NCBI RefSeq assembly: GCF_900187365.1
Contig: NZ_FYDG01000018.1
Location: forward strand, 1 to 41,107
Length of the DNA stretch: 41,107 nucleotides
Origin: Rhodoblastus acidophilus
GTDB taxonomy: Bacteria; Pseudomonadota; Alphaproteobacteria; Rhizobiales; Beijerinckiaceae
Direction of reading: 5' to 3'
Both the position numbers and the translations under genes were made by a program. The number at the start of each line of letters is the position of its first letter. The first letter of the stretch is position 1. Below, one piece after another: positions 12,001 to 33,904 of the stretch. Under the pieces are notes generated by a model, which was not told the origin of the DNA, made no database searches, and worked only from the letters and a program-made list of their open reading frames with translations.

Positions 12001-15000
12001 GGAGGCAAGTTTACAGCCAGACTGAGCGGCAACCAACCGCTACCGTCCTGGATCGCTTTCGATCCCGATCGCGTTTCTCTCAGCTTGTCCGGCGTCGCGC
12101 CGGCGTCCGACGCCCAAACCGCGCATGTGCAGGTCACGTTTACGCCAAAAGCGAAAGTGCTGCAGCCGGATGTCTACGCAGCCGCGACGGGCGCTTTCAC
12201 ACTTGAATTCTTGATTGATCCCAATGCGCCTTTCGATCCTGCGATCAATGCAGTTCTGTCAAATGCCGCCTTTTTCGCGTCGGAAGGCCTGTTTGGGCTC
12301 GACCTCAACAAGGCTGCTTCCGTCACGCCGATGGCAGCCAATGACAAGCCTCTGCCCTCGTGGCTGCATTTCAACGCCGCGACCCTCACCTTTTTCGGCT
12401 CGCCGCCGCCCGAATTCGTCGGCGCGCTGCCGGTCCGCTTGGGTGTCGTCGGAAAGGACTCGTTGCCGAGCTTCAGCATCCTCACGGAGGTCGTGGTCGA
12501 CCCGACCTACAAGGTTATCGACGCCGGCGCCTTCTCTGCGACCGCGTCGCCGAAAGAAATCGAGCTGACGGCGCCAAGCCATTACAATGGCGAAGTGGCG
12601 GTGACCTATACCTCAGTCGACGACAAGGGCTTCGCCTCGGTCAATTCAGCGATCGACGTCGTCAATATCGCGCCGCGCGCCGTGCCTGTGCGCCCCGTCA
12701 ACGATACCTTCACCTTGCTGCAGGGGCGCAGCGTGACGTTCACGCTGGACGAACTTCTGGCGAACGACCGCGACGACAATGGCGATTTCTTCCACGCCAT
12801 CAGCATCGCGCGGCCGGAGCACGGCTCGCTGGTGATGATCACAGACAGTATCGATCTGGCGCCGCCACAGGCTCTCGCCGGGCTGAACGGAGGAACCTTC
12901 TCCGCTACGCTCGTCGACGGTTCGGCGCTGCCGGACTGGATGGTTCTCGACGCGGCCACGGGGCATATCTCCGCACGTCCGCCATTTGCTATCTCCGGCA
13001 ATTACACGTTCGCCTTCGGCTGGACGGATGGGACAGCCCAGAAGCAAGGCAAGGCGACCTACGCGCTCGACGGCAACGACGCTGTTCGTTTCATCTATCG
13101 GCCGGACGCCGATTTCTATGGCGTCGACACGTTCGCCTATGCTGTCAGCGACGACAAGCAGACGCCTGTCACCGCGACGGTGGCTCTACAGGTGACGCAA
13201 GCGCTTCAGGCCAATGACGACACGTTCTCGACGCCGAGCGACACCGAACTCGTCATTGATCCGGCGACGCTTTTCTCCAATGACGTTAGCGGCGAAAAGC
13301 TCTCGCTGACCTTGGTCGGCGTCGGCGACGCCGTTAATGGCGCCGTCAGCTTTGACGGATCGAAGATCGTCTTCACTTCGGCGCATTATTTGGATGGCGA
13401 GGCCAGCTTCGCCTACCAGGTGACCGATGGCGACGGCCACATCTCGACCGCCCATGCAAAGCTGAACGTCACCTCAATCGACCACGCGCCGATTGCCGAG
13501 GATGTGAAATATTTATCGACAGAGGACGCGCCGCTGACGATCAGCGTCGCTGATCTGCTCAGCAAAGCCAGCGATGTCGACGGCGAGACGCTGCAATTGG
13601 TGCGCGTCGTTGCTGACGACGCCGCAAACGCGCGCGTTCTGACGCTGCCCGGGGACTTGATCCAGTTCGTTCCGAAGCAATATTTCAACGGCGACGCCGG
13701 CTTCACTTACTTTGTCTCGGATGGCTACAAGAGCGCCAGTGGCCACATCGTTGTGAATTACGCGCCTGTGAACGACGCGCCCATAGCCAATGTCGACGGA
13801 GTCTTCACCGGCGACGAAAACTCAACCCTGCGCATCAGCCTCGCCACGCTGGCGGCCAATGACGTTGATATCGAAGGCGACAGCTTCAGCGTTGTCAGCG
13901 TGATCAACGGCGTCAACGGATCGGTCGCGATCGATGGAAATGACGCCGTGTTTACGCCGCGCGCAGGCTATTATGGCAACGCCGGCTTTGAATATGTGGT
14001 GGAGGACAGCAAAGGAGCGCAAAGCCTCGGTCAGGTGAACCTGCAAATTAAGCCGGCTCATACCCCGCCGATTGCGGTGTCGGATTCCGGTTACACCATG
14101 TTGCAGGATACGACGCTCGACCTCGACCCGAAGGCGCTGCTTGCCAATGATATTGATCCTGATGGCAAGGGGCTCGTCTTCCTTGGCTTCACGGACTACC
14201 CAGTAACCAAGCTAGATAGCGGGCTCTACCGCGTCACGCCTCCGTTCAATTATTCCGGAAAGCTGAATCTCACCTACGCCATAACAAATGGCTCTGGCCT
14301 GGTGGCGACAACCGTCGTGAGCATCGACGTGCAGCATGTCGAACATGCGCCTGTTGGTGTCGACGACGCGTTCGCCATGGTTGAAGACCAGCCGCTGACA
14401 GTTTCTGTCAAGGATTTGCTCGCTAACGATTTCGATCTCGACTCGCAGGCGCTTTCGTTCGATGGGGTCGCGGACGCCTACCATGTCACTGCTACGGACG
14501 ACGGCGCCGGCCATCTCGTGGTCACGCCCGACCTCAATACCGACGGCAAGGCGTGGTTTGACTATCGCATCGTCGATTCCACCGGCCGCACAGCGACGGC
14601 GCGGGTCAATCTCGACATAGCCCATGTCAATCACGCGCCAACCATTGGCGAGGCTCCTCTCCTCCAAACCGACGAGGAGCAGAGCTTCTCGATCACACTC
14701 GCAAACAGCGTGTTTGCCGACGTCGATGAAGATGCGCTGCTGGTCGACGTTCAGGGCCTCAATGGCGCGGCGCTGCCGGAATGGCTGCGTTTCGACCGCC
14801 AGACCCTGACGCTCAGTGGGACGCCGCCGAAGGGTTATTATGGCGAAGTCACGCTCGAACTGATCGCCGACGATGGCCAGGCGCGCGCGGTCAAAGCGAC
14901 GACGTTCACCGTCAACCGCATCTTCACCGCCCCAACCGCCAGCGATGGCGTACTGATCGCGCCGCATGGCCAGTCAGTCGATATCAGCGAACTTGTCCGG

Positions 15001-21266: not shown

Positions 21267-21656
21267 ATGAAAGCTGCGTCAAAGTCTCCCAAGACCCCGT
21301 CCCCATCGAAGGAAACCGCTGTCATTGCAAAAGCGACGCTTCGCGCCGCCGAGCGGCTTGGCCTGACCGCCAAGATGCTCGGCAAGGTGATCGGCGTTTC
21401 CGAACCGACGGTTTCGCGGCTCAAGACCGGCGCCACAGTTCTGGAGCGGGATGGCAAGCCGTTCGAACTTTCGGTGCTGTTCGTGCGATTGTTCCGGGCT
21501 CTGGACGCGATGACCGGCGGCGACGAGGCCGTGGCCCGCGTTTGGCTCACCAGCCCGAACCTTGTGTTCAACGATGCGCCGATCAATCGGATCATGACGA
21601 TCGCCGGTCTGGTGGACGTCATCGCCTATCTGGACGCCCGTCGTGCGATCGTTTGA
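21267..21656 (+). CDS. Xre/MbcA/ParS-type antitoxin of a RES toxin
   Basis: 129 residues from the ATG at 21267. Residues about 25-65 form a helix-turn-helix region with the V-I-G-V-S-E-P-T-V-S-R-L-K-T-G recognition helix. The C-terminal 45 residues (from V-W-L-T-S-P-N, then P-I-N-R-I-M-T-I-A-G-L-V-D-V-I-A-Y-L-D-A) match the ParS/MbcA toxin-binding domain. In RES/Xre systems this protein binds the toxin and the shared promoter. Its last 14 bases overlap the toxin frame. The promoter was not identified with confidence; the 25 bases before the ATG are AT-rich. Confidence 0.85.
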   Translation: MKAASKSPKTPSPSKETAVIAKATLRAAERLGLTAKMLGKVIGVSEPTVSRLKTGATVLERDGKPFELSVLFVRLFRALDAMTGGDEAVARVWLTSPNLVFNDAPINRIMTIAGLVDVIAYLDARRAIV

Positions 21657-22392
21657 TGTTCGACTATACGAAGGCGTCGGTTGGAGATTGGTCGAAGCGC
21701 AACATAAGGTTTCAACTCTCAAGCTGACGGATGATCTCGAAGAACAGGAGATTCTCGAAAGCCTGATAGAGCAGACCAAGCCGGATATGCCCGCCGAATG
21801 CCGCACGCTCGATTATTTGCTGGCGACGCCTTTTCGCTATGGGGCGATCTACCCGCACGGCTCGCGGTTTCGCCGCGCGGGCAAGACGCCCGGCGTATTC
21901 TACGCTGCGGAGCAGCCGGAAACCGCCATGGCGGAACTCGCCTTTTATCGACTGCTGTTTTTCGCGGAGTCGCCCCAGACGCCTTGGCCAGTCAACCCGT
22001 TTGAGTTCACCGCCTTTTCGGTGGCGTTGCGGACGGAGCGCAGCCTGGACCTCACCGCGGCGCCCCTCTCCGATGAGCGGGCGACCTGGACGCACCCAAC
22101 CGACTATTCCGCTTGCCAAGCGCTGGCCGACGACGCGCGCGCCGATCATATCGCGCTGTTGCGCTATGAATCCGTGCGTGATCCGCAACACGGCAAGAAC
22201 CTCGCCGTGCTCGATCGCGCCGTCTTCGCCGAGCCGCGCCCGCTGGAGCGCCGCACGTGGCGGCTAAAAGTCGGCCCGGCCGGCGCCCATGCGATCTGCG
22301 AATTTCCCGTCGGGAAGATTGGTTTTGATCGCGCCGCCTTCGCCGCCGATCCGCGCATCGCGGGGTTTGTCTGGGAGCGGCCGGGAGGGTGA
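21643..22392 (+). CDS. RES-domain toxin
   Basis: 249 residues from the GTG at 21643, inside the 3' end of the antitoxin. The RES domain lies in the middle: an Arg-rich G-S-R-F-R-R segment, then P-G-V-F-Y-A-A and E-T-A-M-A-E-L-A-F-Y, which supply the Arg, Tyr and Glu of the NAD-binding site. RES toxins resemble ADP-ribosyltransferases and deplete NAD+ by phosphorolysis or hydrolysis, or modify target proteins. At 249 residues it is longer than the 160-residue short RES form and fits the longer class. It appears intact and complete with its antitoxin. Confidence 0.85.
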   Translation: MRSFDVRLYEGVGWRLVEAQHKVSTLKLTDDLEEQEILESLIEQTKPDMPAECRTLDYLLATPFRYGAIYPHGSRFRRAGKTPGVFYAAEQPETAMAELAFYRLLFFAESPQTPWPVNPFEFTAFSVALRTERSLDLTAAPLSDERATWTHPTDYSACQALADDARADHIALLRYESVRDPQHGKNLAVLDRAVFAEPRPLERRTWRLKVGPAGAHAICEFPVGKIGFDRAAFAADPRIAGFVWERPGG

Positions 22393-22452: not shown

Positions 22453-22533
22453 GATCATCCCTGCGGATGCGGGGCTGAACTGCCCGCCGAGCCGTGGCGG
22501 ATTACAATGGTCCCCGCTCCAGCGGGGCTCGCA
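22453..22533 (+). CRISPR. Relic of a type I-E CRISPR array (two repeat-like units)
   Basis: Bases 22453-22480 and 22506-22533 each carry a C-C-C-x-G-C...G-C-G-G-G-G palindrome. The second, CCCCGCTCCAGCGGGG, differs by one base from the palindrome of the E. coli type I-E repeat. The first ends in GGGGCTGAAC, like many I-E repeats. About 25 bases separate them, shorter than a normal 32-33-base spacer, and the copies differ from each other. A broken cas1-like sequence follows 37 bases on. Alternative: unrelated hairpins. Confidence 0.45.
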
Positions 22534-22569: not shown

Positions 22570-22696
22570 ATGCTTGGACTGGCGCCGCCCAGTCCCATCC
22601 CATGAAAGAAGGTTCCTCGATCGTTTTCATCGAATATGGCCAGATCGACGTGATCGACAGCGCCTTTGTCGTCATCGACAAGATCGGAATCACGCC
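22570..22696 (+). pseudogene. cas1: Fragment of the 5' end of type I-E cas1
   Basis: The ATG at 22570 opens MLGLAPPSPIP and then meets a stop. One frame over, starting at 22602, follows M-K-E-G-S-S-I-V-F-I-E-Y-G-Q-I-D-V-I-D-S, continuing A-F-V-V-I-D-K-x-G-I. Joined by a single-base frameshift, they align with the first 40 residues of Cas1 from type I-E systems, whose E. coli member has NPIPLKDRVS followed by a Y-G-Q-I-D-V-I-D-G-A-F-V segment. Similarity ends near 22690, exactly where the leftward nitrogenase-like K gene stops. The remaining 250 or so residues of Cas1 are missing. This looks like a CRISPR-Cas locus cut off at a recombination junction. Confidence 0.7.
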
Positions 22697-23991
22697 CGCG
22701 CGGCCGCGCGCTTCGTCTCCACAACCGGCGTCTGCGCCGCCGTGAGTGCGGCGAGCAGGCGAGCGACGCCGCGCGCGCCGGTAAAACCGCCAGACAAGGC
22801 GGCGCGGCCGCCGAGATCGGCGATCGGCGCGAAAGGGATGGCCAGTTCGCCGGCCAGCGCGCCGTAACGCGCGCCCGCGATCAGGAAATCCGGTTCGGCG
22901 TCGCGGATCGCCGCCTTGACGGCTGCCCCATCGGCCGTCGAGATCACCCGCCCGGCGAAAGCGGAAAGGCCGGAGTCGCCCGTGGGTTCGTCGGTCAGCA
23001 CCAGCGCCCGCCCGTCCCAGCCCAGGTTCGTGACCAGGAAGCGGGCGATCGGCCCCGCGATCACGCTGTTGCCGGCGATGGCGACACGGCGCCGGCCAAG
23101 ACGGCTCAACGCCAAAAGCGTTTCGTCGAGCGCGAAATCCTCGAAGCGCCGTTCGGAAATCAGCAGGCGCTCGACCGCCGCATCGTCGATCAGCGAAGTC
23201 GCCGCGGCGAGGCGGCGCAGCAGATCTTGGACGGCGTCGGCGCCGACCGGCAGTCCCTCGACCGCCACGATGGGAACGCCGGCCTTGGCCTTCAACGCCT
23301 CGGCGGGCGCCAGCCCCCAGGGCGACAGCACGAGGCTCGCCACGGCCTTGGGCAGAGCCGCCAGGGAAGACAGGCCTCCGCCCGGCCCGAAAATCGGATT
23401 GGCGACGAGGCCGACCGCAGCCAGCAGCCGGCTGATTTCGTCGAGATCGGACGCCCAGGTCTCGTCATAACGGGGAACGACGCCGAAAATATTGACCAGT
23501 CCCGGCGCTGCCGGCGCGGCCGGCAATCGAAGTTCGTCCACCCGCGCCGCCAGGGCGGCGAGAACCCGTTCGTAGCCGCCATGGGCGGAGCCGAGAAAAC
23601 CGGCGGCCCCGACATCGATCACCGACTCGCCCTGCGTGACGGCCTCCCGCACCATGGCGGGAACGTCGTCGCCGATCATTTCGGTCGGGCATCCCGTGAT
23701 CACCACCAGCAGACCGCGCGGCAGCACGCTCAGGGTGTTCTTGATCTGCTCGCGCAGCCGCGAGGCGCCGCCGAACACAATGTGCTTCTCGGCCAGATTG
23801 GTGGAGGAAATCGGCGACAGATGGATCGGCGCGCCGCGAAACCCTTGCGCGCCCGCCGTGGCGAAAGCGCCGCGCAAGGCGCAGCCCGGCGTCGAGTGCA
23901 CCAGAGGCGTCACGCCCTCGATCGCTGCGACCGTGGCCAGCGCGCCATGCAGGGCGCAGCCGTCATGGAATCCGACCAGCGGACGGGACAT
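22690..23991 (-). CDS. Nitrogenase-like component 1 subunit, K/N-type (three cluster cysteines)
   Basis: 433 residues. The start ATG (23991-23989) overlaps the preceding gene's TAA by one base and has a full GGAGGTG site 5 bases upstream. Cysteines occur only at 12 (H-D-G-C-A-L-H-G), 37 (S-T-P-G-C-A-L-R-G) and 101 (I-T-G-C-P-T-E-M-I-G-D-D). Their spacing of 25 then 64 is close to the three cluster ligands of BchN in dark-operative protochlorophyllide reductase. An S-T-N-L-x-E-K-x-I-V-F-G-G motif at 63-75 is typical of NifK/E/N relatives. NifK is about 520 residues; this is shorter. By homology it is one half of a catalytic heterotetramer receiving electrons from the NifH-like protein. Its 3' end abuts the cas1 relic. 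Confidence 0.85.
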   Translation of the reverse strand: MSRPLVGFHDGCALHGALATVAAIEGVTPLVHSTPGCALRGAFATAGAQGFRGAPIHLSPISSTNLAEKHIVFGGASRLREQIKNTLSVLPRGLLVVITGCPTEMIGDDVPAMVREAVTQGESVIDVGAAGFLGSAHGGYERVLAALAARVDELRLPAAPAAPGLVNIFGVVPRYDETWASDLDEISRLLAAVGLVANPIFGPGGGLSSLAALPKAVASLVLSPWGLAPAEALKAKAGVPIVAVEGLPVGADAVQDLLRRLAAATSLIDDAAVERLLISERRFEDFALDETLLALSRLGRRRVAIAGNSVIAGPIARFLVTNLGWDGRALVLTDEPTGDSGLSAFAGRVISTADGAAVKAAIRDAEPDFLIAGARYGALAGELAIPFAPIADLGGRAALSGGFTGARGVARLLAALTAAQTPVVETKRAAARA

Positions 23992-25349
23992 TACTTCACC
24001 TCCAGCTTGACGTGCCAGTCCGGGCTGCGGCGCAGCCAGCCGGCGGAATAGCGCGCCGAGCTGCGCGCGAGCCGCGCCGCCAGCGCGGCGCCGGCGAGGG
24101 CGTCGTCCACGGCCTTGGCGAGGGCGCGCGCGCCGGGAACGCCTATCACGGCGGCGGGGTCGAGCCGCGCGGCGGGGACGCCGAGCCGCAACGCGGCGGC
24201 GACCGCGTCGGCGGAGCCGACGACGACGTCGGGCGCGAGACGCTGCAACACATTGGCGAGTTCGAACCCCTGGGCCTCGCCGACATGGATCTGCGCCCGG
24301 GGACGGCGCGCGGAGAAGCGCGCGAGATTTTGGGCGTGAGAGCGGTCGAGATGCGGCACGGTCAAGCCGACCACCTCGCCGCCGGCCTCCTCGACGAGAT
24401 CGGACAGCGCGAAGGCGAAAGCCGAGGGTCCCGCCAGAACGACGCGCCGGCTCCGCAGGCTTTCGATCGGCGGCGACGACCCGTCGACATGGATTTCTCG
24501 GCCAACGAGATCGGCGAGGCCCGTAAGGGCCGTGGCGGTGGCCATCGGCCCGACCGGCGGCGGCGTTTCGAGAACGGGGACGCCGAACCGTTCCGCCAGG
24601 CCGGAAGCGAGCGCGTCCAGACCGTCGGGATCGAGCACGACGCTCGCGCTGGCGCGCGCCGCCCGTCGAAGGTCGGCGACATGGGCGCCGGCGGGCAGCA
24701 GGTTGACGCGCAAGCCAAGAGAATCCAGTGCAGCCACGAAATCGTCCACGGCGGCGCCCGTCCAGCATGTCAGGACATTGACGAGGTCCGGCTCGCGTTC
24801 GCCCTCCGGCGCCCCGATCAGATTGAGAAGGGCGTCGGCGGCGGCGTCGGCGCCGGTGGCGGCGATGTGGGAGCGGAACCCGTCGGTGCGCGCCCAGACC
24901 ACGGGCTTGCCGATCTGGTCGGCCACTTCGGCGACCACAGCGCGAATTTCATCGTTGTTGATCGCGACCACCGGCGATCCCAGCACCACAAGGGCGGCGG
25001 GACCGGCGGTTTCGTCCAGGCGCAGGAGCGCGCGGGCGAGGGCGTCGCCGGCGCCGAGCACGGTGTCGCGCTGGTCGAGATCGGTGACGGCGATGCGCTC
25101 CAGGGGCGCGTCGGCGCCCACCGCGCAGCCGCGCGGGCCGTGGACGACGAGACCGAGGTCTTCGACGAGTCCGAGCACATGCAGGGCGACGCTGAGATCG
25201 TCATGCGCGGCTTCCGAAAAGGTGCGGATGCGCTTTTGCGGCAGGTCGTCGCCGGCGAAATCGGCGGCCACGGCTTCGGCGTCGGCCAGACGCGCGCCGA
25301 GCGCGCCCAGGCGGGTTTCGCGGGGGAGCAGACGGGAGCGGCGCGCCAA
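23991..25349 (-). CDS. Nitrogenase-like component 1 subunit, D/B-type (single cluster cysteine)
   Basis: 452 residues from a TTG at 25349, two bases after the NifH-like stop; no better start lies near. The only cysteines are 75 (V-V-H-G-P-R-G-C-A) and 195 (N-V-L-T-C-W-T-G). Cys75 aligns by eye with NifD Cys88 and with the Asp that ligates the cluster in BchB. The usual T-G-C-P-x-E-x-I-G-D-D motif is replaced by V-L-G-S-P-V-V-A-I-N-N-D-E, so that cysteine is Ser125. The region of the NifD cofactor ligand Cys275 (around residues 235-245) has no cysteine. P-cluster and FeMo-cofactor binding of the nitrogenase type are therefore unlikely. I infer a single [4Fe-4S] cluster held with the K-type partner. 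Noticeably GC-rich. Confidence 0.8.
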   Translation of the reverse strand: MARRSRLLPRETRLGALGARLADAEAVAADFAGDDLPQKRIRTFSEAAHDDLSVALHVLGLVEDLGLVVHGPRGCAVGADAPLERIAVTDLDQRDTVLGAGDALARALLRLDETAGPAALVVLGSPVVAINNDEIRAVVAEVADQIGKPVVWARTDGFRSHIAATGADAAADALLNLIGAPEGEREPDLVNVLTCWTGAAVDDFVAALDSLGLRVNLLPAGAHVADLRRAARASASVVLDPDGLDALASGLAERFGVPVLETPPPVGPMATATALTGLADLVGREIHVDGSSPPIESLRSRRVVLAGPSAFAFALSDLVEEAGGEVVGLTVPHLDRSHAQNLARFSARRPRAQIHVGEAQGFELANVLQRLAPDVVVGSADAVAAALRLGVPAARLDPAAVIGVPGARALAKAVDDALAGAALAARLARSSARYSAGWLRRSPDWHVKLEVK

Positions 25350-25351
25350 GG

Positions 25352-26221
25352 CTAAAGCCTCGCCTCGTTGTTGGCGTCGCGCTCGACGCCGAAGATGCGG
25401 TCGCCCCAGCTCCTGGCCCAGTCCTTCAACTCCGGGCCGTTGAGCGGCCTGGGCAGGCGCGTTTCGTGATCGCCGACCACCCGGCGCGCCAACGCGCGAT
25501 AGATTTCCGCCTGCTCCGAATAGGGCTGCGCCTCGATCACCGTCTGCCCATAGAGTTCGGACTGCGCGACCGCCTGCGAGCGCGGCACATAGCCGACGAT
25601 TTCCGTTCCCGTGCGCGCGGCGAAATCGTCGAGCAACTCGCGGGCGTAGGGCGTCTGGATGCTGTTGGCGATGACGCCGCCGAGCCGCGCGCCGCCCGTG
25701 GCGGCGTATTTGTCGATGGCCTTGAACAGGTTATTGGCGGCGAACACCGCCATGAAATCCGACGAGGCCACCACGAAAGCGCTTTCCGCGATGCCGTCGC
25801 GGATCGGCACGGCGAAGCCGCCGCAGACCACGTCGCCGAGCACGTCGTAAAGCACGTAGTCCGGCTTGAATTTCTCGAACACCTGCAGTTCGTCCAGGAG
25901 GTCGACCGCGGCGGCGATGCCGCGCCCGGCGCATCCCACGCCGGGCACCGGGCCGCCGGCCTCGATGCACAGCACGCCGCCGAAGCCGATGGTCGAGATC
26001 TGCTCCAGGCTGGGCCGCGCGCGGTCGCGCAGGCTGTCGAGCACGGTGGGCAGTTCGGCGCCGCCGCGCAAGATCACGGTGGAATCGCTCTTGGGATCGC
26101 AACCGATCTGGATGACGCGGCGCCCCGATTCCGCGAGGGCGGCGCTGATGTTCGAGGTCGTGGTGGACTTGCCGATGCCGCCCTTGCCGTAAATGGCGAT
26201 ATGCTTGGGTGTCGAGCTCAA
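25352..26221 (-). CDS. NifH/BchL-like ATP-dependent iron-sulfur reductase
   Basis: 289 residues from a TTG at 26221, with GAGGAG 7 bases upstream; no ATG or GTG precedes the P-loop, so the TTG is needed. The Walker A motif Y-G-K-G-G-I-G-K-S-T is at 11-20. The [4Fe-4S] ligands Cys97 (P-G-V-G-C-A-G-R-G) and Cys133 (D-V-V-C-G-G-F) match NifH Cys97 and Cys132. Arg100, the ADP-ribosylation site of some NifH proteins, is conserved. It is the electron donor that couples ATP hydrolysis to reduction of the D/K-like component. NifH, BchL, BchX, CfbC and others share these features, so the motifs alone do not fix the pathway. It lies 38 bases after the radical SAM gene, in one operon. Confidence 0.92.
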   Translation of the reverse strand: MSSTPKHIAIYGKGGIGKSTTTSNISAALAESGRRVIQIGCDPKSDSTVILRGGAELPTVLDSLRDRARPSLEQISTIGFGGVLCIEAGGPVPGVGCAGRGIAAAVDLLDELQVFEKFKPDYVLYDVLGDVVCGGFAVPIRDGIAESAFVVASSDFMAVFAANNLFKAIDKYAATGGARLGGVIANSIQTPYARELLDDFAARTGTEIVGYVPRSQAVAQSELYGQTVIEAQPYSEQAEIYRALARRVVGDHETRLPRPLNGPELKDWARSWGDRIFGVERDANNEARL

Positions 26222-26259
26222 GAAATTTCTCCTCGCGCTGCTGAAAGAGGCCGGTCGAA

Positions 26260-27483
26260 TTACTCGGCGGCGGCGGCGAACTTGCTTTGCTTGAAGATCG
26301 GCAGCGTCTCGCGCTCGATGCGCCAGATGTCGTGCTGCAACGTTTCAACGCCCGCATTGGAATCGTAAAGATTGGCCCAGGTGAAGCCCGCCTTGCCCCA
26401 GATCGACGCGATCTGGTGGGCGAGGTCGATGTACCAGGCCGGCTCCGGCGCGCGATGGCCGTAAAGCTCGGAACCCGGATTAGGGCACCAAACGCTCGCG
26501 GTGGCGACCACGCCCTTGTTGGACAAATATTCGACGCCCTTGAGCGTCGAGCGCTTCGGCTCGATGCCGGCGACAATGTTCGAGCGCACATGGCCGTGGC
26601 CGAACACCTTGACCGCATATTCCAACGCCGCGCGCCAATGGTCCCAGCCGCCGCTTTCGCGCGACTTGCCGGGGCAGATCACGTCGTAAATGCCCTTTTC
26701 CCAGATTTCGATGTTCATCGCCGTGGTGCGGAAGCCGGCCTCCTTGAAGCGGTCGATGTTGCGCAGGTCGATCGGCGCGGCGACCACGGCGGTTCCGTTG
26801 AAATCCTCGACGCCGCCATAACGCTGGATCGCCTCGGCCACATCGTTGTAATATTCCAGCTCGCGCCGCTCGGGGATGACGCCGCCGGAGATGGTGACCT
26901 TGTCGACGAGGTTGAGGCGGCGCGCCTCGGCGTAAACCTCGCCGATCTGCCGGGCGCTCTTCCAGAAAACGCCCTCACGCTCGCCATAAGTGTCGGCGGT
27001 GAAATTGATGTTGCAGAACAGGCAGTCTTCGCCCTTCTCCTTGTAGGAGCATTCGTTGGAATAGGCGACGAACAGCTGCCGCTCGGCGCCGAGCAGGCCG
27101 ATGGTCTCCATGGCGGCGCCGTCGCTGGTCTTCTTGCCGTAATAGCCGGGGCGCTCGGGGAAGGTCGCTTCGGAAAGCTCATGATCGCCGCGCGCGACAA
27201 TGACGCGCCCGCCATCGAGCGTCAGGCGGTTCTGCGCCTTGGGATTCCATCGGAACGGCACGACAAGGCCGAGCGGCAGCCGGCAATACGCCGGAAGCTG
27301 GCCCTTGTAGACCTCGAAATCCATCGCGAACAGGCAGTGCACCGCTTCCTGCGTCTTCACGCCCGGCGCGATGGATTGCAACGTCTGCGAATCGATGGCG
27401 AGGCCATCGGTCTGCAATTCGGCTTTCAGGGCAAGTTCCTGATACAGGCGGTCTTTCAATCCGATTTCCGATGTCGCCATCAT
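26260..27483 (-). CDS. Radical SAM protein of the nitrogenase-like operon
   Basis: 407 residues from an ATG at 27483 (a second ATG follows directly), with AGGAGA upstream. Cys145, Cys154 and Cys157 form C-x8-C-x2-C (E-C-S-Y-K-E-K-G-E-D-C-L-F-C), an unusual spacing for the SAM-binding [4Fe-4S] site, normally C-x3-C-x2-C. An I-S-G-G motif near residue 199 fits the GGE position, and a barrel follows. A roughly 140-residue N-terminal extension precedes it. No extra cluster-binding cysteine set is evident at the C-terminus, unlike NifB. It is the first gene of the operon, so it may build or modify the substrate or a cofactor of the reductase; this is inference. Confidence 0.8.
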   Translation of the reverse strand: MMATSEIGLKDRLYQELALKAELQTDGLAIDSQTLQSIAPGVKTQEAVHCLFAMDFEVYKGQLPAYCRLPLGLVVPFRWNPKAQNRLTLDGGRVIVARGDHELSEATFPERPGYYGKKTSDGAAMETIGLLGAERQLFVAYSNECSYKEKGEDCLFCNINFTADTYGEREGVFWKSARQIGEVYAEARRLNLVDKVTISGGVIPERRELEYYNDVAEAIQRYGGVEDFNGTAVVAAPIDLRNIDRFKEAGFRTTAMNIEIWEKGIYDVICPGKSRESGGWDHWRAALEYAVKVFGHGHVRSNIVAGIEPKRSTLKGVEYLSNKGVVATASVWCPNPGSELYGHRAPEPAWYIDLAHQIASIWGKAGFTWANLYDSNAGVETLQHDIWRIERETLPIFKQSKFAAAAE

Positions 27484-27528
27484 GTCTCTCCTGTTCTGGA
27501 AAAAGGGTGGCGACGCCTAATGCCGCCT

Positions 27529-27571
27529 CTATATCACTATAAATCCGATCGATAATATGTTATTTAAAGCC
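27529..27571. promoter_or_regulatory. AT-rich divergent control region, nitrogenase-like operon / SDR
   Basis: The 160-base gap between the radical SAM start and the SDR start contains about 43 AT-rich bases in otherwise GC-rich DNA. It carries TCTATA and, read on the minus strand, GATCGGAT, which recurs on the plus strand in the 29651-29697 control region. No clear -35/-10 pair was found. Confidence 0.4.
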
Positions 27572-27643
27572 ACACGGTCGCGAGCGCAAGCGGTTTGATC
27601 GCGCGCCTGCCGGCGCCGCCAGACTTTTGTTCGGAGAGCATTC

Positions 27644-28408
27644 ATGAGTTTCGAAGGAAAGGTCGCCCTCGTCACCGGCGCGTCATCGGGCATTGGCGAG
27701 GCGATCGCCCTCGCCTTCGCCGCGAGGGGCGCGGCGGTCGTCGTGAACGGCCGCGACCCCGACCGCATCGAGCGCGTGGTCGGGCGCATCAAGGCGGCGG
27801 AGGGCGCGGCCATCGGCGTCCGCGCCGACGTCGCCAGCCGGTCCGAGGTCCAGCGCCTGGTGGAAAGCGCGCTCTCCGCCTTCGGCCGCATCGACATTCT
27901 CGTCAACAACGCTGGCGGCGACGGCGGCGCAAAGCGGGTCGAGGACATATCCGAACAGGAATGGGACGCTGTTTTCGCCACCAATCTGAAAAGCGTGTTC
28001 CTGGTCACGCAGGCGGTTCTGCCCGTGCTGAAACGGCAGGGCGGCGGCAAGATCGTCAACATTTCGTCGCAAGCCGGACGGGCCATGACCATTCTCGCCG
28101 GCCCCGCCTATTCGGCCGCCAAGGCCGGCGTCCAGGCGTTCAGCCGGCAGGTCGCCCGCGAGGCGGCCCCATTCGGGATCAATGTCAATGTGGTCGCGCC
28201 CGGAATCATCCGGTCGAGCTCGCGTCTCGATGCGGTCTGGGACGATTTGCCCGACGACCTGAGAGCGCGCATCCTGTCCGACATACCGGCCGGACGCTTG
28301 GGCGAGAACGCGGAAATCGTCGCCGCGGCGCTGTTCCTGGCCTCACCCGACGCCAGCTATCTCATCGGTGCGACGCTCGACGTGAACGGCGGGCGCTGGA
28401 TGCTGTGA
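27644..28408 (+). CDS. Short-chain dehydrogenase/reductase (SDR)
   Basis: 254 residues from the ATG at 27644, with G-G-A-G-A-G upstream. A classical SDR: cofactor motif T-G-A-S-S-G-I-G at 11-18, N-N-A-G at 88-91, and catalytic Asn114, Ser142, Tyr156 and Lys160 (Y-S-A-A-K). It reduces a carbonyl or oxidises an alcohol with NAD(P). Basic residues after the second strand (N-G-R-D) favour NADP(H), by inference. It is divergent from the nitrogenase-like operon and shares its control region. A role in the same pathway, handling a ketone or alcohol intermediate, is plausible but unproven. Confidence 0.9.
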   Translation: MSFEGKVALVTGASSGIGEAIALAFAARGAAVVVNGRDPDRIERVVGRIKAAEGAAIGVRADVASRSEVQRLVESALSAFGRIDILVNNAGGDGGAKRVEDISEQEWDAVFATNLKSVFLVTQAVLPVLKRQGGGKIVNISSQAGRAMTILAGPAYSAAKAGVQAFSRQVAREAAPFGINVNVVAPGIIRSSSRLDAVWDDLPDDLRARILSDIPAGRLGENAEIVAAALFLASPDASYLIGATLDVNGGRWML

Positions 28409-28418
28409 GCGCCGCCCG

Positions 28419-29621
28419 CTAAGCCGTTTCCGGAGCCTCGTCTTCCTCCAGCGGGACGTCCGCCCGTCGGCTGGCGGTATAGGCCGCCAGTAGCAGGCAG
28501 GTCGGAACGAAGGCGATGAAGACGGCGCGACACCCGCAGAAAGTGGCGACGATTCCGGCGTAAATCGGCGCGACCACGATGCCGACGCTCACCGCCGTGG
28601 AAAACAGCGCCGCCACCTTGCCCTTTTCGCCGGGCAGCGTGGCCGCGCGGGTCGCGGCCGCCAGATTGAGCAGGCCGAGCCCGACGCCGAGCAAAGCGGA
28701 AAAACCGATCAGGACCTCTTCGCCCGACGACAGCGACACGCCGGTCAGCGCCAGCGACAGCAAGGCGAGTCCGGACAACGCGACGGCCCGGTAGCCATGG
28801 CGCTGCGCGAGCCGTCCGAGCAGGAACAGCGCGAAAATATAAGCGACGCCTTCGGCCCCGACGAACAGGCCGGCTTTCCAGGCCGGCATGGCCAACTCCG
28901 TTGTCACGGCGACGCCGATGAAGGCGTTGAAGATGTTGAAACAGCCGGCGCTGATCGCCTCGGCGCCCAGGGCCGCCGGCACGTCGCGATGCGCGAGCAG
29001 GCCGGCATAGGCCCGCGCGGCGCCGCGCACGCCAAGGCGTTCCGGCGCCGATGCGCCTTTGCGCCGCATCGGCGCCAGCCGCGCGAAGATCAGGCTCGGA
29101 ACGAGCTGGATCGCCGCCGCCAGGAAGAACACGACGGCGAAGTCGCCGCGCCCGACCAGCGCCCCTCCGAGCAGCGGCCCGACGAAGCCGAGCCCGATTG
29201 AAAAGGACGCGCGCGACCAGCCGACCTTGTCGACGCCGATCAACGGCAAGGCGCGATAGAACGAACTGCTCAGCGCGTTGAACTTGACCGAACGCGCGAC
29301 GCCCTCCGCGCCCAAGGCAAACAGCAGCAACGACAGCGCCTGGATCGACGGCAGCATGAGGCAACAGAGAATGCCCGCGACATTGCCGATGTGAAACATG
29401 GCCTGCGAGCCGAACCGGTCGTTTAGCAAGCCGGCGGGAATGGCGGTGAGCAGCAGGCCGGCCCCGGCCACGGCGCGCATCACGCCGATCTCGGCGGGCG
29501 AGGCGCCGAGATGAAACGCGAACAGCGGCAGCGCCAACTGCGTCATGCCGACGGCGATTCCGATCGAGGCGTTGAGAAGGAGATAGCCCAGGAGCAGGCG
29601 GCGGGCGTCGGAGGACTGCAT
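28419..29621 (-). CDS. Major facilitator superfamily transporter
   Basis: 400 residues from the ATG at 29621. About twelve hydrophobic helices are visible, with an MFS loop-2-like segment, A-G-L-L-N-D-R-F-G-S, near residue 63 and a central cytosolic loop (R-R-K-G-A-S-A-P-E) near 190. It is an inner-membrane secondary transporter, drug- or metabolite-efflux type by overall look; substrate unknown. It converges with the SDR (10-base gap) and diverges from the substrate-binding-protein gene across an AT-rich region. It may export the product or a toxic by-product of the neighbouring reductase pathway. Confidence 0.85.
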   Translation of the reverse strand: MQSSDARRLLLGYLLLNASIGIAVGMTQLALPLFAFHLGASPAEIGVMRAVAGAGLLLTAIPAGLLNDRFGSQAMFHIGNVAGILCCLMLPSIQALSLLLFALGAEGVARSVKFNALSSSFYRALPLIGVDKVGWSRASFSIGLGFVGPLLGGALVGRGDFAVVFFLAAAIQLVPSLIFARLAPMRRKGASAPERLGVRGAARAYAGLLAHRDVPAALGAEAISAGCFNIFNAFIGVAVTTELAMPAWKAGLFVGAEGVAYIFALFLLGRLAQRHGYRAVALSGLALLSLALTGVSLSSGEEVLIGFSALLGVGLGLLNLAAATRAATLPGEKGKVAALFSTAVSVGIVVAPIYAGIVATFCGCRAVFIAFVPTCLLLAAYTASRRADVPLEEDEAPETA

Positions 29622-29650
29622 GGGGATCTTTCTGGCGCGGCGGAGCGGTC

Positions 29651-29697
29651 TTGCAATGTTATAATCTATATTTATGATCGGATAACAAGATAATTAG
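29651..29697. promoter_or_regulatory. AT-rich divergent control region, MFS / ABC importer
   Basis: Contains a perfect -10-type TATAAT (29660-29665, plus strand) and arms GTTAT and ATAAC separated by 19 bases. It also has TCTATA and GATCGGAT, both found in the 27529-27571 region. No good -35 lies at the right distance, so an activator may be required. Confidence 0.4.
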
Positions 29698-29717
29698 GCC
29701 GCAATCGGAGACTTCAC

Positions 29718-30827
29718 ATGGTCGCACGCCGTCCTTCCCTGGCCGCCCTCATCCTTCTCGCCCTTTTTCCGGGCGCGCTCGCCGCCGCCGGGGCGGGCGC
29801 CGAGACGCAAATTCGGATCGGCATCCCCGGAACAGGGCTCGAAGGCCGGCCCTTCGTCCCCAACAGCCTGGTCGCGGTGGCGCATTCGGAGAAATTCGTC
29901 GAGGCCGAATTCAAGGACGAGCCGGACGTCAAAATCAGCTACACCCTGTTCCGCGGCGCCGGCCCGGCGGTCAATGAATCGCTCGCGGCGGGGCGACTCG
30001 ACTTCGTCGCGCTGGGCGATCTTCCCGCGCTGGTCGGCAAATCGCGGGGGCTGCCGACCAAGCTGGTGCTCGGCGTCGGCGTGCGCGAACCGCTCTATCT
30101 GGTGACGCTCGCCAATTCCGACATCAAGTCCATTGCGGATTTGAAGGGGCGAAAAGTCTCGCAATTCCGCGGCACCAACCTCCAGATCGCCATGGATCGC
30201 GCCCTTGAGGCGCATGGTCTGAGCGAGAAGGATGTCCGCTTTGTCAGCCTGGACCAAGCCGCCGCCATATCCGCCCTGCTGTCCGGCAATGTCGAGGCGG
30301 TGTTCGGCGCCGCCGAATATCTTGATCTCGTCCGCCGCGGCTTGGTCAAAGTCGTCTATTCGACCAAGAGCGAAGCGAACGAACTGGGCCGCAGCGCCGC
30401 GGTTCTGGTGACCGACGCGTTCGAAGAGGCCCATCCCGAGGCCACCCAAAAGGTCGTAACCGCACTGGTCAAGGCGGCGCGCTACACGTCGGACGAAGCC
30501 AATCGCGACAAGGTGTTCGAAATCTGGGCCAAATCCGGCATTCCCGTCTCCAGCTTCGTCGTCGATCACGAGGGCGAACGTCTGGCGGATCGAAGCACGC
30601 CCCTGCTCGACGCCTACGCCATCGCCCGCCTGAAGTCGCAGGCCGGGCGCGGCAAGGCATACGGCCTGCTGAAAAAGGACATCGACTTCGATGCGTGGAT
30701 TGAGACGAAATATCTCGACAAGGCGCTGAAAGATCTTGGCCTGGAGCATTTTTGGCCGGTCCATGACGCCAAGGGCGAAAAGATCGCCGACGGCGAGGTG
30801 GAAAAATCCCGCGACGCCAGCAATTAG
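29718..30827 (+). CDS. ABC transporter substrate-binding protein (NitT/TauT/SsuA family)
   Basis: 369 residues from the ATG at 29718, preceded by G-G-A-G. A signal peptide of about 28 residues ends near A-G-A-E. The mature part is an NMT1/SsuA-type periplasmic binding protein: early I-R-I-G-I-P, N-E-S-L-A-A-G-R-L-D-F-V-A-L-G-D in the first lobe, D-L-K-G-R-K-V-S-Q-F-R-G-T-N at the hinge region, and L-L-S-G-N-V-E-A-V-F-G-A. Relatives bind sulfonates, taurine, nitrate or similar small anions and organic compounds. The substrate cannot be read from the sequence. It heads the importer gene set but is separated by 118 bases and a separate promoter from the permeases. Confidence 0.88.
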   Translation: MVARRPSLAALILLALFPGALAAAGAGAETQIRIGIPGTGLEGRPFVPNSLVAVAHSEKFVEAEFKDEPDVKISYTLFRGAGPAVNESLAAGRLDFVALGDLPALVGKSRGLPTKLVLGVGVREPLYLVTLANSDIKSIADLKGRKVSQFRGTNLQIAMDRALEAHGLSEKDVRFVSLDQAAAISALLSGNVEAVFGAAEYLDLVRRGLVKVVYSTKSEANELGRSAAVLVTDAFEEAHPEATQKVVTALVKAARYTSDEANRDKVFEIWAKSGIPVSSFVVDHEGERLADRSTPLLDAYAIARLKSQAGRGKAYGLLKKDIDFDAWIETKYLDKALKDLGLEHFWPVHDAKGEKIADGEVEKSRDASN

Positions 30828-30868
30828 CCCGCGCCGGGCGCAGGCGTCGGCCTGCGGCGACAAAGCGC

Positions 30869-30912
30869 TTGACGCGCTCTCTTAACAGTCTATAAAATAC
30901 ATCAGTTTTATA
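30869..30912 (+). promoter_or_regulatory. Promoter with palindromic operator upstream of the permease genes
   Basis: TTGACG (30869-30874), 16 bases, then TATAAA (30891-30896) form a near-consensus sigma-70 promoter. The -10 lies in a perfect inverted repeat, TATAAAA (30891-30897), 8 bases, TTTTATA (30906-30912), so a bound protein would block RNA polymerase. The form recalls Mo-responsive or sulfur-responsive operators, but no regulator can be named. Confidence 0.6.
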
Positions 30913-30945
30913 TATTTTAACGGACTGCGCCGGGAGGCCTTGCGC

Positions 30946-31788
30946 ATGAGCTTTGGATGGACCCTCGCCCCGCCCGCGCCGGTCGCGGGCGGGACCGCCA
31001 TTGCAGCCGGTCTGCGCCAGTTGCGGACTTTCGCCGCCTCGGCGGGTCTTGCTCTCGCCGTCCCGCTGCTGTTGGCGGCGCTCTGGATCTTCTGCGCGCG
31101 TTATAGCTGGATTCCGGATCAAATCCTGCCCGCGCCCGCCGCCGTCTGGCAGACCCTGCGCGAGGGCTGCGCCGATGGCTCCCTCCGGGACGCGACATTG
31201 ATCAGTCTGCAGCGCGTCCTAGCGGGCTTCGGCATCGGCGCTGGCGCCGGCGTGCTGGTCGGGGGCCTGCTCGGGGCGTCGCGGACGTTGCGCAGCTATA
31301 TCGAACCGTTCTTCCTCGCCTTCAACCAGGTCCCTCACATCGCGTGGATGCCCGTGCTGATGGTGCTGTTCGGGATCGGCGAGGCGCTGAAGATCATCCT
31401 GATCGCCTGGGCGGCGTTCATGCCCGCGGCGCTCTACGCCTTGCAGGGCGTCCGCGATGTTCCCGAAGGTTTTCGCGAGCTTGGCCGCGCGCTGATGCTC
31501 GACCGCCGCGCGACTTTTTGCACCATCATCCTGCCCTCGGCGCTGCCCTCGATCTTCACGGGCCTGCGCGAGGGCCTCGCCCATGCCTGGCAGGCGCTGG
31601 TGGCGGCCGAACTGCTCGCCTCGTTCGAGGGGCTCGGCTACCTGATGGCTTATGGCCGGCAATTGTTCCAGTTGGATGTCGTGCTGGCGGCCATGGCGAT
31701 CATCGCGCTGATCGGCGTCGCGTTCCACGTCCTGCTGAGCATGGCTGAAACCCGGCTGCGCCGCTGGCGGTTGGAGGGCGCGCAATGA
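30946..31788 (+). CDS. ABC transporter permease 1 (NitT/TauT/SsuC type)
   Basis: 280 residues from the ATG at 30946, which has GGGAGG 8 bases upstream; the TTG at 30940 is too close to that site. An N-terminal helix is followed by the permease core with about five further membrane helices. The cytoplasmic EAA-type loop lies around V-P-E-G-F-R-E-L-G-R-A-L-M-L-D (about residues 170-185), where the ATPase docks. It pairs with the next permease as a heterodimer, since the operon encodes two different permeases. The stop overlaps the next gene's ATG by four bases. Confidence 0.88.
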   Translation: MSFGWTLAPPAPVAGGTAIAAGLRQLRTFAASAGLALAVPLLLAALWIFCARYSWIPDQILPAPAAVWQTLREGCADGSLRDATLISLQRVLAGFGIGAGAGVLVGGLLGASRTLRSYIEPFFLAFNQVPHIAWMPVLMVLFGIGEALKIILIAWAAFMPAALYALQGVRDVPEGFRELGRALMLDRRATFCTIILPSALPSIFTGLREGLAHAWQALVAAELLASFEGLGYLMAYGRQLFQLDVVLAAMAIIALIGVAFHVLLSMAETRLRRWRLEGAQ

Positions 31789-32600
31789 ACTTGACCGCCG
31801 CTCTCCGCGCCACCCGCTCCCGTTCAACTTATCTTCTCGCGCTGCGGCCTAATGCAAAGAGCTGGCGCCCCTGGCTCGCCCCCCTGGCGGCGCTGCTGAT
31901 TTGGGAGGCTTGCGCGCATCTTCCCGGCGTCGACCCGCGCTTTCTGCCGTCGCTGGAGGCGGTGGCGGCGCGGGCGTGGGAGGGTTTCGTCCATGACGAT
32001 TATCTCGGCCATCTGCTCGCGAGCCTCGGTCGCGATCTCGCCGGTTTTTTCCTCGGCGGCCTCGCCGGCGTCGCCACGGGACTCGCCCTCGGCTTTTCCC
32101 CCTTGCTGGCGCGGGTCGTGGGGCCGACGCTGATGACCTATCGCCAGATTTCGCTGTTCGCCTGGATCCCGCTGGTCTCCATGTGGTTTGGCGGCGGCGA
32201 GGCCGGCAAGATCGCCTTCATCGCCATGGCCGCGTTCCAACCAACGCTGGTCAACAGCTGGCGGGGCGTCGCCGAAATTCCCAAAAGCTATCGCGAGCTT
32301 TCCGATGTCCTGCTGCTGGGGCGGTTGGGCTTTGTCGCGCTGATCGCCCTGCCCTGCGCGCTGCCGCAGATTTTCACCGGGCTGCATTCCGCGCTGATCT
32401 GCTCCTGGGCGGCGACCGTCGGGGCCGAACTGCTGTTTAACCTCGCGCCGGGGCTGGGCGGCCAGATGAACGAGGGGCAGCAGATGTTCCTGATGGACAA
32501 GCTGCTGCTGTGCATCCTGCTGCTCGGCAGCGTCGGGGTCGTCTTCAACCTGCTGGCCCGCGCGGCCGAGCGCCGCTGCTTGCGCTGGAGGACTCTGTGA
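31785..32600 (+). CDS. ABC transporter permease 2 (NitT/TauT/SsuC type)
   Basis: 271 residues from the ATG at 31785, inside the ATGA overlap with permease 1. A basic N-terminus is followed by about six membrane helices, with the EAA-type loop around E-I-P-K-S-Y-R-E-L-S-D-V-L-L-L-G (about residues 165-180). It is diverged from permease 1 along its length, so this importer has a heterodimeric channel, less usual than the single SsuC/TauC permease. The GTG start of the ATPase overlaps its TGA. Confidence 0.88.
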   Translation: MNLTAALRATRSRSTYLLALRPNAKSWRPWLAPLAALLIWEACAHLPGVDPRFLPSLEAVAARAWEGFVHDDYLGHLLASLGRDLAGFFLGGLAGVATGLALGFSPLLARVVGPTLMTYRQISLFAWIPLVSMWFGGGEAGKIAFIAMAAFQPTLVNSWRGVAEIPKSYRELSDVLLLGRLGFVALIALPCALPQIFTGLHSALICSWAATVGAELLFNLAPGLGGQMNEGQQMFLMDKLLLCILLLGSVGVVFNLLARAAERRCLRWRTL

Positions 32601-33418
32601 TCGACTCTCTTGCGCCTTCCGCCACGAACGCGCTGGAAATCTCACGTGTCAGCAAGCGGTTTCTGGTCGCGGGGCGTCCTTCGCCGGTGCTCGGCGGCAT
32701 TGACCTCCGGGTCCGCGACGGCGAGTTCGTCAGCATTGTCGGCGCTTCCGGTTGCGGTAAGTCCACCCTGCTGCGGCTGATCCTCGGGCTGGACACGGAC
32801 TATGACGGCGACATCCGGATCGATGGCGCGCAGGTGGCGGGTCCCGGCCTCGACCGCGCCATCGTGTTCCAGGACCATCGGCTGCTGCCATGGCTGAACG
32901 TCCGCTCCAACATCGCGGTCGCCTTGCGGCATAGTGCGCTCGGTAAGGGTGAAAAGGCCGGACGCGTCGACGAGTTGGTCAAGCTCGTCGGTCTCGAACG
33001 TTTCGCCGAAGCCTGGCCCGCGCAACTGTCTGGCGGCATGGCGCAGCGGGTCGCGATCGCGCGGGCGCTGGCCAACCGGCCGCGCTTCCTGCTGCTGGAC
33101 GAACCGCTTGGCGCGCTCGACGCTCTGACCCGTTTGCGCCTGCAAAACGAACTTCTGCGCATCGTCCGCCAGGGCGGGACCACAGCGATCCTGGTGACCC
33201 ATGATGTCGATGAGGCGATCTATCTCGGCGATCGCGTCGTGGTGATGCGGCCTGATCCTGGCCGGATCGCCGCCGTGATCGCCGTTTCCGGCGCCGAATC
33301 GCACGACCGCTCGGCGCCCGAATTCATCCGCTTGCGGGACCGTATCCTGGCGCTGCTGGGCGTGGTCAGGAGCGAAGCCGACGCCTCGGCCGGCCACGGC
33401 TTGGCGCCCGTCGCCTGA
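32597..33418 (+). CDS. ABC transporter ATPase (NitT/TauT/SsuB type)
   Basis: 273 residues from the GTG at 32597, overlapping the permease 2 stop and preceded by GGAGGA (32587-32592). Walker A G-A-S-G-C-G-K-S-T at 48-56, Q-loop in F-Q-D-H-R-L-L-P-W, signature L-S-G-G-M-A-Q-R, Walker B L-L-L-D-E-P and the H-loop in V-T-H-D are all intact. The L-L-P-W form is typical of the SsuB/TauB/NrtD group. It powers import through the two permeases. It is the last gene of the tightly overlapping operon. Confidence 0.92.
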   Translation: MIDSLAPSATNALEISRVSKRFLVAGRPSPVLGGIDLRVRDGEFVSIVGASGCGKSTLLRLILGLDTDYDGDIRIDGAQVAGPGLDRAIVFQDHRLLPWLNVRSNIAVALRHSALGKGEKAGRVDELVKLVGLERFAEAWPAQLSGGMAQRVAIARALANRPRFLLLDEPLGALDALTRLRLQNELLRIVRQGGTTAILVTHDVDEAIYLGDRVVVMRPDPGRIAAVIAVSGAESHDRSAPEFIRLRDRILALLGVVRSEADASAGHGLAPVA

Positions 33419-33517: not shown

Positions 33518-33904
33518 ATGACCGTCGTGGACAGCGGTTCCTTCTGGCTGGCCGGCTATTTCGAAGAAACCCAGATCGCCGGAATCCGCGACGGCGACGC
33601 CGTCGATTTCGTGCTGATGGGCTATCCGGGCCGCACGCTGCATGGCCGGGTGGACAGCATGAGCCAGGGCATCGCCGACCAGAACGGCGACAGCTCCGGC
33701 GCAAGCCTCGCCTCCGTCAATCCGGTCTTCACCTGGGGGCGCCTGGCGCCGCGCATTCCCGTGCGCGTCGCGCTCGACGCCATCCCCGGCGACGTGAAGT
33801 TGGCGGCGGGCATGACCTGCACGATCACGATCGGTGCGCAATCCGGATTGCTGGCCGACCTCAAATATGCCGTGCGTTATTGGACAACGGGCTGGCGCGG
33901 TTGA
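33518..33904 (+). pseudogene. C-terminal fragment of an HlyD-family membrane-fusion protein
   Basis: 128 residues matching the C-terminal third of HlyD/AaeA-type efflux adaptor proteins: L/M-T-V-V-D-S-G-S-F-W followed by G-Y-F-E-E-T, then V-D-F-V-L-M-G-Y-P-G-R-T-L-H-G-R-V-D-S and L-A-P-R-I-P-V-R-V-A-L-D. The family is about 280-300 residues; the N-terminal membrane helix, barrel-sandwich and coiled coil are missing. The 100 bases upstream do not supply them in any frame. A relic of an efflux gene, possibly cut when the importer operon was inserted. Confidence 0.75.

Follow-up and report, generated by a model that had tools for sequence, protein, structure and literature searches.

A nitrogenase-like gene cassette with its own importer in Rhodoblastus acidophilus, probably an isethionate reductase-type system for sulfonate assimilation

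We analysed a stretch of 41,107 nucleotides from contig NZ_FYDG01000018.1 of Rhodoblastus acidophilus (i.e., the window), which carries a block of ten genes for a radical SAM protein, NifH-like, D-like and K-like proteins (H, D and K), an SDR oxidoreductase, an MFS transporter and the four components of an ABC importer. This cassette belongs to a known kind of system, to which the MFS gene and the two-permease importer are additions. The proteins most probably make up a sulfonate assimilation system of the isethionate reductase (Isr) type, a judgement that covers any sulfonate and overlaps in part with the alternatives weighed below. A preliminary description, made from the sequence alone, had proposed a new type of pathway that matches no known gene set. 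Neither claim holds, as the pattern has already been described for isethionate reductase: IsrBHDK with SsuCAB (PMC11423573) agrees with the cassette in the order of its genes, the cysteine pattern of D and K, the kind of radical SAM protein and the type of importer. The analysis assigns an Isr-type cassette to Rhodoblastus and to one further genus of its order; it forms a compact, probably transferred unit that includes importer and MFS genes.

Isethionate reductase was first described in 2024 from isrBHDK of Rhodobacter capsulatus SB1003, in which the radical SAM, H, D and K genes are consecutive (PMC11423573). Mutants in isrB, isrH or isrDK do not grow anaerobically on isethionate, and an isethionate lyase can substitute for IsrD/K, which makes sulfite release part of the function. 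The importer genes ssuCAB are essential in R. capsulatus, and isrBHDK plus ssuCAB confer growth on R. sphaeroides (PMC11423573). The main text of that study names neither Rhodoblastus nor Blastochloris; it is cited in PMC11659671 and appears in the reference list of PMC13067680, and IsrBHDK is among the models used in PMC12330013, according to excerpts of these papers.

The window operon (22690-27483, minus strand) has the same contiguous order of radical SAM, H, D and K genes. According to PMC11423573, IsrD has a single Cys (Cys74), in contrast to all other NifD homologues, and IsrK has Cys12, Cys37 and Cys99; window D likewise has one Cys (Cys75) and window K three (Cys12, Cys37 and Cys101). 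At the NifD Cys154 site window D has Pro126 and IsrD has Pro or Ser, and, as in IsrD, the cofactor ligands are lost in window D. Both systems use a radical SAM protein unlike NifB, and the window importer is of the sulfonate/taurine type, comparable to SsuCAB. Finally, the IsrD and IsrH clades lie near methylthio-alkane reductase (MAR) (PMC11423573), and so does the window clade in our own trees, in which IsrD itself is not included.

The ligands were read from an alignment of four window-type pairs, 14 MAR-type pairs and the nif, anf, vnf, two nifEN, bchNB and bchYZ pairs of the source genome (nif, anf, vnf, nifEN, bchNB and bchZ named by models above cut-offs, K/N partners and bchY by position). 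Here 'MAR-type' is a working label: the D proteins of two of the 14 pairs were compared with the PDB and score 948 and 587 bits to 9FMG, given as the MAR structure in excerpts of PMC12552129. Window-type D has identical letters at the ligand columns in all four rows, namely Asp50, Cys75, Pro126 and Asp240; its single Cys stands at the NifD Cys88 site, and Asp240 takes the place of the cofactor Cys (Cys275). All 14 MAR-type D rows have three P-cluster Cys, the cofactor Cys and the Arg-His pair of MAR, the last being found in none of the four window-type rows. Cys12, Cys37 and Cys101 are present in every window-type K; the corresponding MAR-type K columns hold Cys in 11, 13 and 14 of 14 rows, the misses being gaps in N-terminally shortened rows. 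We take the four Cys remaining in the window-type pair to be ligands of the K-side half of the P-cluster. The window type lacks the combination expected of Nif, Vnf and Anf, namely P-cluster Cys and cofactor Cys in D together with above-cut-off NifD/NifK matches.

Phylogenetically, the D/K pair forms a distinct clade next to MAR. The best solved relatives by sequence are 9D9U and 9FMG (247 bits for K, 176 bits for D), followed by NifEN (120 and 96 bits). A tree built from 47 D and K rows groups window-type K with MAR-type K (100/99) and sets window-type D apart as a clade without a resolved neighbour. A joined D+K tree (24 rows, with BchNB and BchYZ as the root) recovers the window type (100/100), the MAR type (99/98) and the two together (97/94), with the caution that the Bch rows are long-branched and the window-type rows of unusual letter make-up. 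This joined tree took in Nif, Vnf, Anf, NifEN, BchNB, BchYZ and MAR-type pairs, with CfbD and IsrD left out, and the window D/K falls inside none of these clades. Ligands and tree together bear out the earlier statement that the cassette matches none of nitrogenase, DPOR, COR and MAR, and, given this root, point to a lineage that probably lost the D-side P-cluster ligands and retained the K-side ones. In the H tree the window-type rows stand apart from MAR, with weak deep forks, and one MAR-type H (Treponema) groups with nifH; the H encoded by the MAR-type operon in the source genome shares 62% identity with window H.

The cassette occurs in two of 11 genomes of the genus, the 4.71 Mb source genome and Rhodoblastus sphagnicola DSM 16996, which has all ten genes in the same arrangement at 71-92% identity; in none of the other nine does the best K match exceed about 55 bits. 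Two genomes from another family of the order (G172 and G065) carry nine of the ten genes, the SDR gene missing, on a single strand in the order substrate-binding protein, permease, permease, ATPase, radical SAM, MFS, H, D, K, so that MFS sits between radical SAM and H in both. Since ten genes recur in R. sphagnicola and nine in another family, the gene set is not a matter of chance. Importer and MFS accompany the operon in four of four clusters, and the view of the block as one functional unit with importer and exporter, along with the importer co-occurrence proposed as its check, is upheld. Identity between the window and G172/G065 is 61% for radical SAM (at least 61% between any window-type members), 78% for H, 44-45% for D, 38-39% for K and 44% for the substrate-binding protein. 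In the family of G172 the cassette is found in two of eight genomes, judged by radical SAM.

In wider samples, for which at most four candidates were scored per genome, a K match at E <= 1e-30 was obtained in 11 of 397 genomes of the order, three of them window-type (the source genome, G172 and G065); of the remainder, G412, G313, G400 and G297 have a NifB-like radical SAM gene and a NifX-like gene by at least one copy, and G275, G336, G363 and G423 were classed as non-window-type from score alone. The phylum sample (398 genomes) and the class sample (372 genomes) held the cassette in the source genome alone. A scan of genome contigs with two short D peptide patterns, which reach near relatives only, returned R. 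sphagnicola alone, and scans of viral contigs with K and radical SAM confirmed no member. Among plasmids, the top match to K was 32% identical, with 20 of the 26 records listed; radical SAM gave 482 records, every one below 60% identity and the 15 listed at 25-28%. Next to six other radical SAM relatives (L083-L088), blastp at E 1e-5 detected no H, D or K gene.

Annotation with curated models supports these identities and locates all ten genes where they had been described (Table 1). The radical SAM protein scores 423 bits with variant_rSAM (NF045502, cut-off 125) and gives no match with NifB models. The NifH-like protein scores 370 bits with the nifH model, under the equivalog cut-off of 394; the two component-1 proteins score 163 and 211 bits with Oxidored_nitro and far under the cut-offs of the NifD, NifE, BchN, Ni-sirohydrochlorin cyclase and related models. 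SDR, MFS_1, two BPD permeases and the ABC ATPase were each assigned in this way, and the best solved relative of the substrate-binding protein is 3UIF, deposited as sulfonate-binding SsuA (180 bits); the complete NitT/TauT-type importer with two permeases thus stands as described. The K-like gene needs correction, its frame being that of Table 1 and not the 692-codon frame; its start at 23991 overlaps the end of the D-like gene. For the ATPase, a start at 32597 is likelier than the listed frame, which overlaps permease 2. AlphaFold models were too poor for use (mean pLDDT 36 for the radical SAM protein, 38 for D), and PADLOC gave no match for the two proteins submitted.

Table 1. Coordinates of the cassette genes and of two intergenic regions in the window
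Feature	Position	Strand	Remarks
K-like component-1 subunit (IsrK-like)	22690..23991	-	433 aa; Cys12, Cys37, Cys101 retained
D-like component-1 subunit (IsrD-like)	23991..25349	-	452 aa; sole retained ligand Cys75; Asp50, Pro126 and Asp240 elsewhere
NifH-like ATPase / electron donor	25352..26221	-	289 aa; GKGGIGKS motif; Cys97, Cys133
Radical SAM protein, NF045502 'variant' family	26260..27483	-	CX8CX2C at 145-157; no NifB model match
AT-rich divergent intergenic region, radical SAM operon / SDR	27484..27643		promoter-like site
SDR oxidoreductase	27644..28408	+	254 aa; confined to the two Rhodoblastus clusters
MFS transporter	28419..29621	-	400 aa; present in four of four clusters
AT-rich divergent intergenic region, MFS / importer	29622..29717		promoter-like site
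SsuA-family periplasmic substrate-binding protein	29718..30827	+	369 aa
ABC permease 1	30940..31788	+	BPD permease model
ABC permease 2	31785..32600	+	BPD permease model
ABC ATPase, NtrCD/SsuB/TauB type	32510..33418	+	listed frame; start probably 32597

The block has a G+C content of 0.67, against 0.61-0.62 on either flank, and three of its gaps (0.46-0.57) are AT-rich relative to the genes (0.63-0.73). Three sigma-70-like sites are found in the block, one in each AT-rich gap, compared with an average of 0.8 in shuffles. The preliminary description had the gaps share AT-rich motifs; their AT-richness is confirmed, and one constructed shared motif (at most one mismatch) has three occurrences in the window where shuffles give 1.83, which is not above chance. 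Over the stretches compared, conservation does not reach beyond the cassette (close to one of its edges the R. sphagnicola contig stops); G172 and G065 share an unrelated downstream gene. Patchy presence, rearranged gene order and composition together suggest that the cassette was transferred as a unit.

Gene fragments at both edges look as if the cassette sat between broken genes: on the left a weak N-terminal Cas1e-like fragment (22602-22691; 14 bits, E 0.018), on the right an AaeA-type efflux adaptor reduced to its C-terminal third (33518-33904; 68 bits). Beside the Cas1e-like piece, the single sequence at 22455-22481, which we take to resemble a type I-E CRISPR repeat, occurs only once in the window even with three mismatches allowed. 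An Xre/MbcA-type antitoxin and RES-domain protein pair lies nearby (21267-22392), and a 5747-codon open frame (97-17340) occupies the left part of the window.

Related genes abound in the source genome: nitrogenase genes of the Mo, V and Fe types, two nifEN pairs, genes for DPOR and COR, and an HDK operon of the MAR type; the K query alone has 13 matches in it. Elsewhere in this genome, a distant radical SAM protein of the NF045502 family (L086, 9789-11102; 191 bits) is about 25% identical to that of the cassette. One MAR-type operon (L048, 5908-8976) has two tandem D genes of 509 aa each. Another operon type, with NifH and two component-1 genes next to iron-type ABC importer genes and no radical SAM gene annotated nearby, occurs on plasmids in Sporomusa termitida and Treponema saccharophilum (L091, 8998-12270; L092, 8992-12165). 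A role shared with MSMEG_0568 (Nit1C-type) radical SAM proteins was considered and dropped: in the three plasmid regions inspected, those adjoin nitrogen-starvation genes, and two of the three list a nitrilase.

In the proposed pathway, the NitT/TauT-type importer would take up a small sulfonate, most likely isethionate. The NifH-like protein, judging from its family, would pass electrons to D/K in a manner coupled to ATP hydrolysis. In D/K a single [4Fe-4S] cluster would sit where the P-cluster once was, presumably with three ligand Cys from K and one from D, and an FeMo-co-like cofactor would be missing, the known ligands tested (the Cys column and the MAR Arg-His pair) being absent. Aided by the radical SAM protein, D/K would cleave the C-S bond and release sulfite for cysteine synthesis, a reaction with genetic support in R. 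capsulatus (PMC11423573). The MFS protein may remove a product or a surplus. An imported organic substrate, as suggested earlier, is likely in our judgement. Asp in place of Arg in D, the MFS gene and the second permease also allow for a sulfonate other than isethionate. In R. capsulatus the carbon product and the radical SAM role were left open, and the authors call the reductive reaction and the ethanol product presumed (PMC11423573). The source organism, which holds DPOR and COR genes, is for that reason likely a phototroph like R. capsulatus. Also in favour of the Isr assignment, no Xsc above the curated cut-off was found in the four cassette genomes, weaker matches occurring there and in all 14 controls; SsuD was found in one of the four (G065) and not in the other three.

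Several observations weigh against the assignment to Isr. The likeness to the R. capsulatus proteins rests on published descriptors rather than a sequence alignment, and the substrate-binding protein scores 143 bits with SsuA_fam, under its cut-off of 163.5. At the NifD Cys62 site window D has Asp50, and IsrD is reported to have a conserved Arg. The MFS gene, second permease and SDR gene lie outside the R. capsulatus minimal set. In addition, the nearest Swiss-Prot entry to IsrB is BciD (PMC11423573), and the window radical SAM protein scores on the NF045502 and MSMEG_0568 models. Some of these points would fit a sister system to Isr whose substrate is some other imported organosulfur or small compound and whose reduced product leaves through the MFS protein: MFS is present in all four clusters and inside the operon in two, the two permeases differ, Asp50 replaces the reported Arg, an SDR gene adjoins the cassette in Rhodoblastus, and the split between the two genera is deep (D 44-45%, K 38-39%). 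The cysteine pattern, gene order and importer type are nevertheless close to Isr; we regard such a sister system as unlikely, and it merges with the Isr assignment if its substrate is a sulfonate. Similarly unlikely is a second, unassigned branch of the Isr family in which some sulfonate different from isethionate, or a further kind of organosulfur compound, is imported and reduced, with a dedicated MFS pump exporting the carbon product and Asp50 perhaps replacing a Cys as cluster ligand.

Known enzymes outside the Isr family fare far worse. That the cassette encodes MAR itself is highly improbable, even though the nearest solved relatives are 9FMG and 9D9U and several MAR-type clusters have ABC importer genes resembling those of the window: D has lost the P-cluster and cofactor ligands and the Arg-His pair, a loss that refutes MAR unless an unrelated cofactor serves, no NifB/MarB-like radical SAM, NifX or sulfhydrylase gene is present, the window type is a separate clade, and another operon in the same genome has the D that scores 948 bits to 9FMG. 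We consider a tetrapyrrole reductase (DPOR, COR or CfbCD-like) just as improbable. One [4Fe-4S] site without cofactor ligands would suit it; against this, the three Cys are on a K-like and not an N/Y-like subunit, the tree (in which CfbD is not included) joins the window type with MAR and not with BchNB or BchYZ, DPOR and COR have genes of their own in the genome, and the importer would go unexplained.

Compared with known systems, MAR (MarBHDK) is the closest solved relative and shares C-S cleavage as its proposed chemistry. In excerpts of PMC12552129, MAR is given six P-cluster Cys, a cofactor Cys270, [Fe8S9C] ligands, a NifB-like MarB and Arg428-His429, the last as a proposed hallmark; the cassette does not have this set. 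COR (BchXYZ), DPOR (BchLNB) and NifEN, as represented in the source genome, resemble the window type in a single cluster site shared three to one between subunits, but their three Cys belong to the alpha-type subunit (Y, N or E), those of the window type to the beta-type, K-like subunit. Isethionate reductase of R. capsulatus is the nearest known system: its importer has one permease and that of the window two, with the importer directly joined to the operon, and the conserved MFS protein and two-permease importer offer testable leads on product and substrate range.

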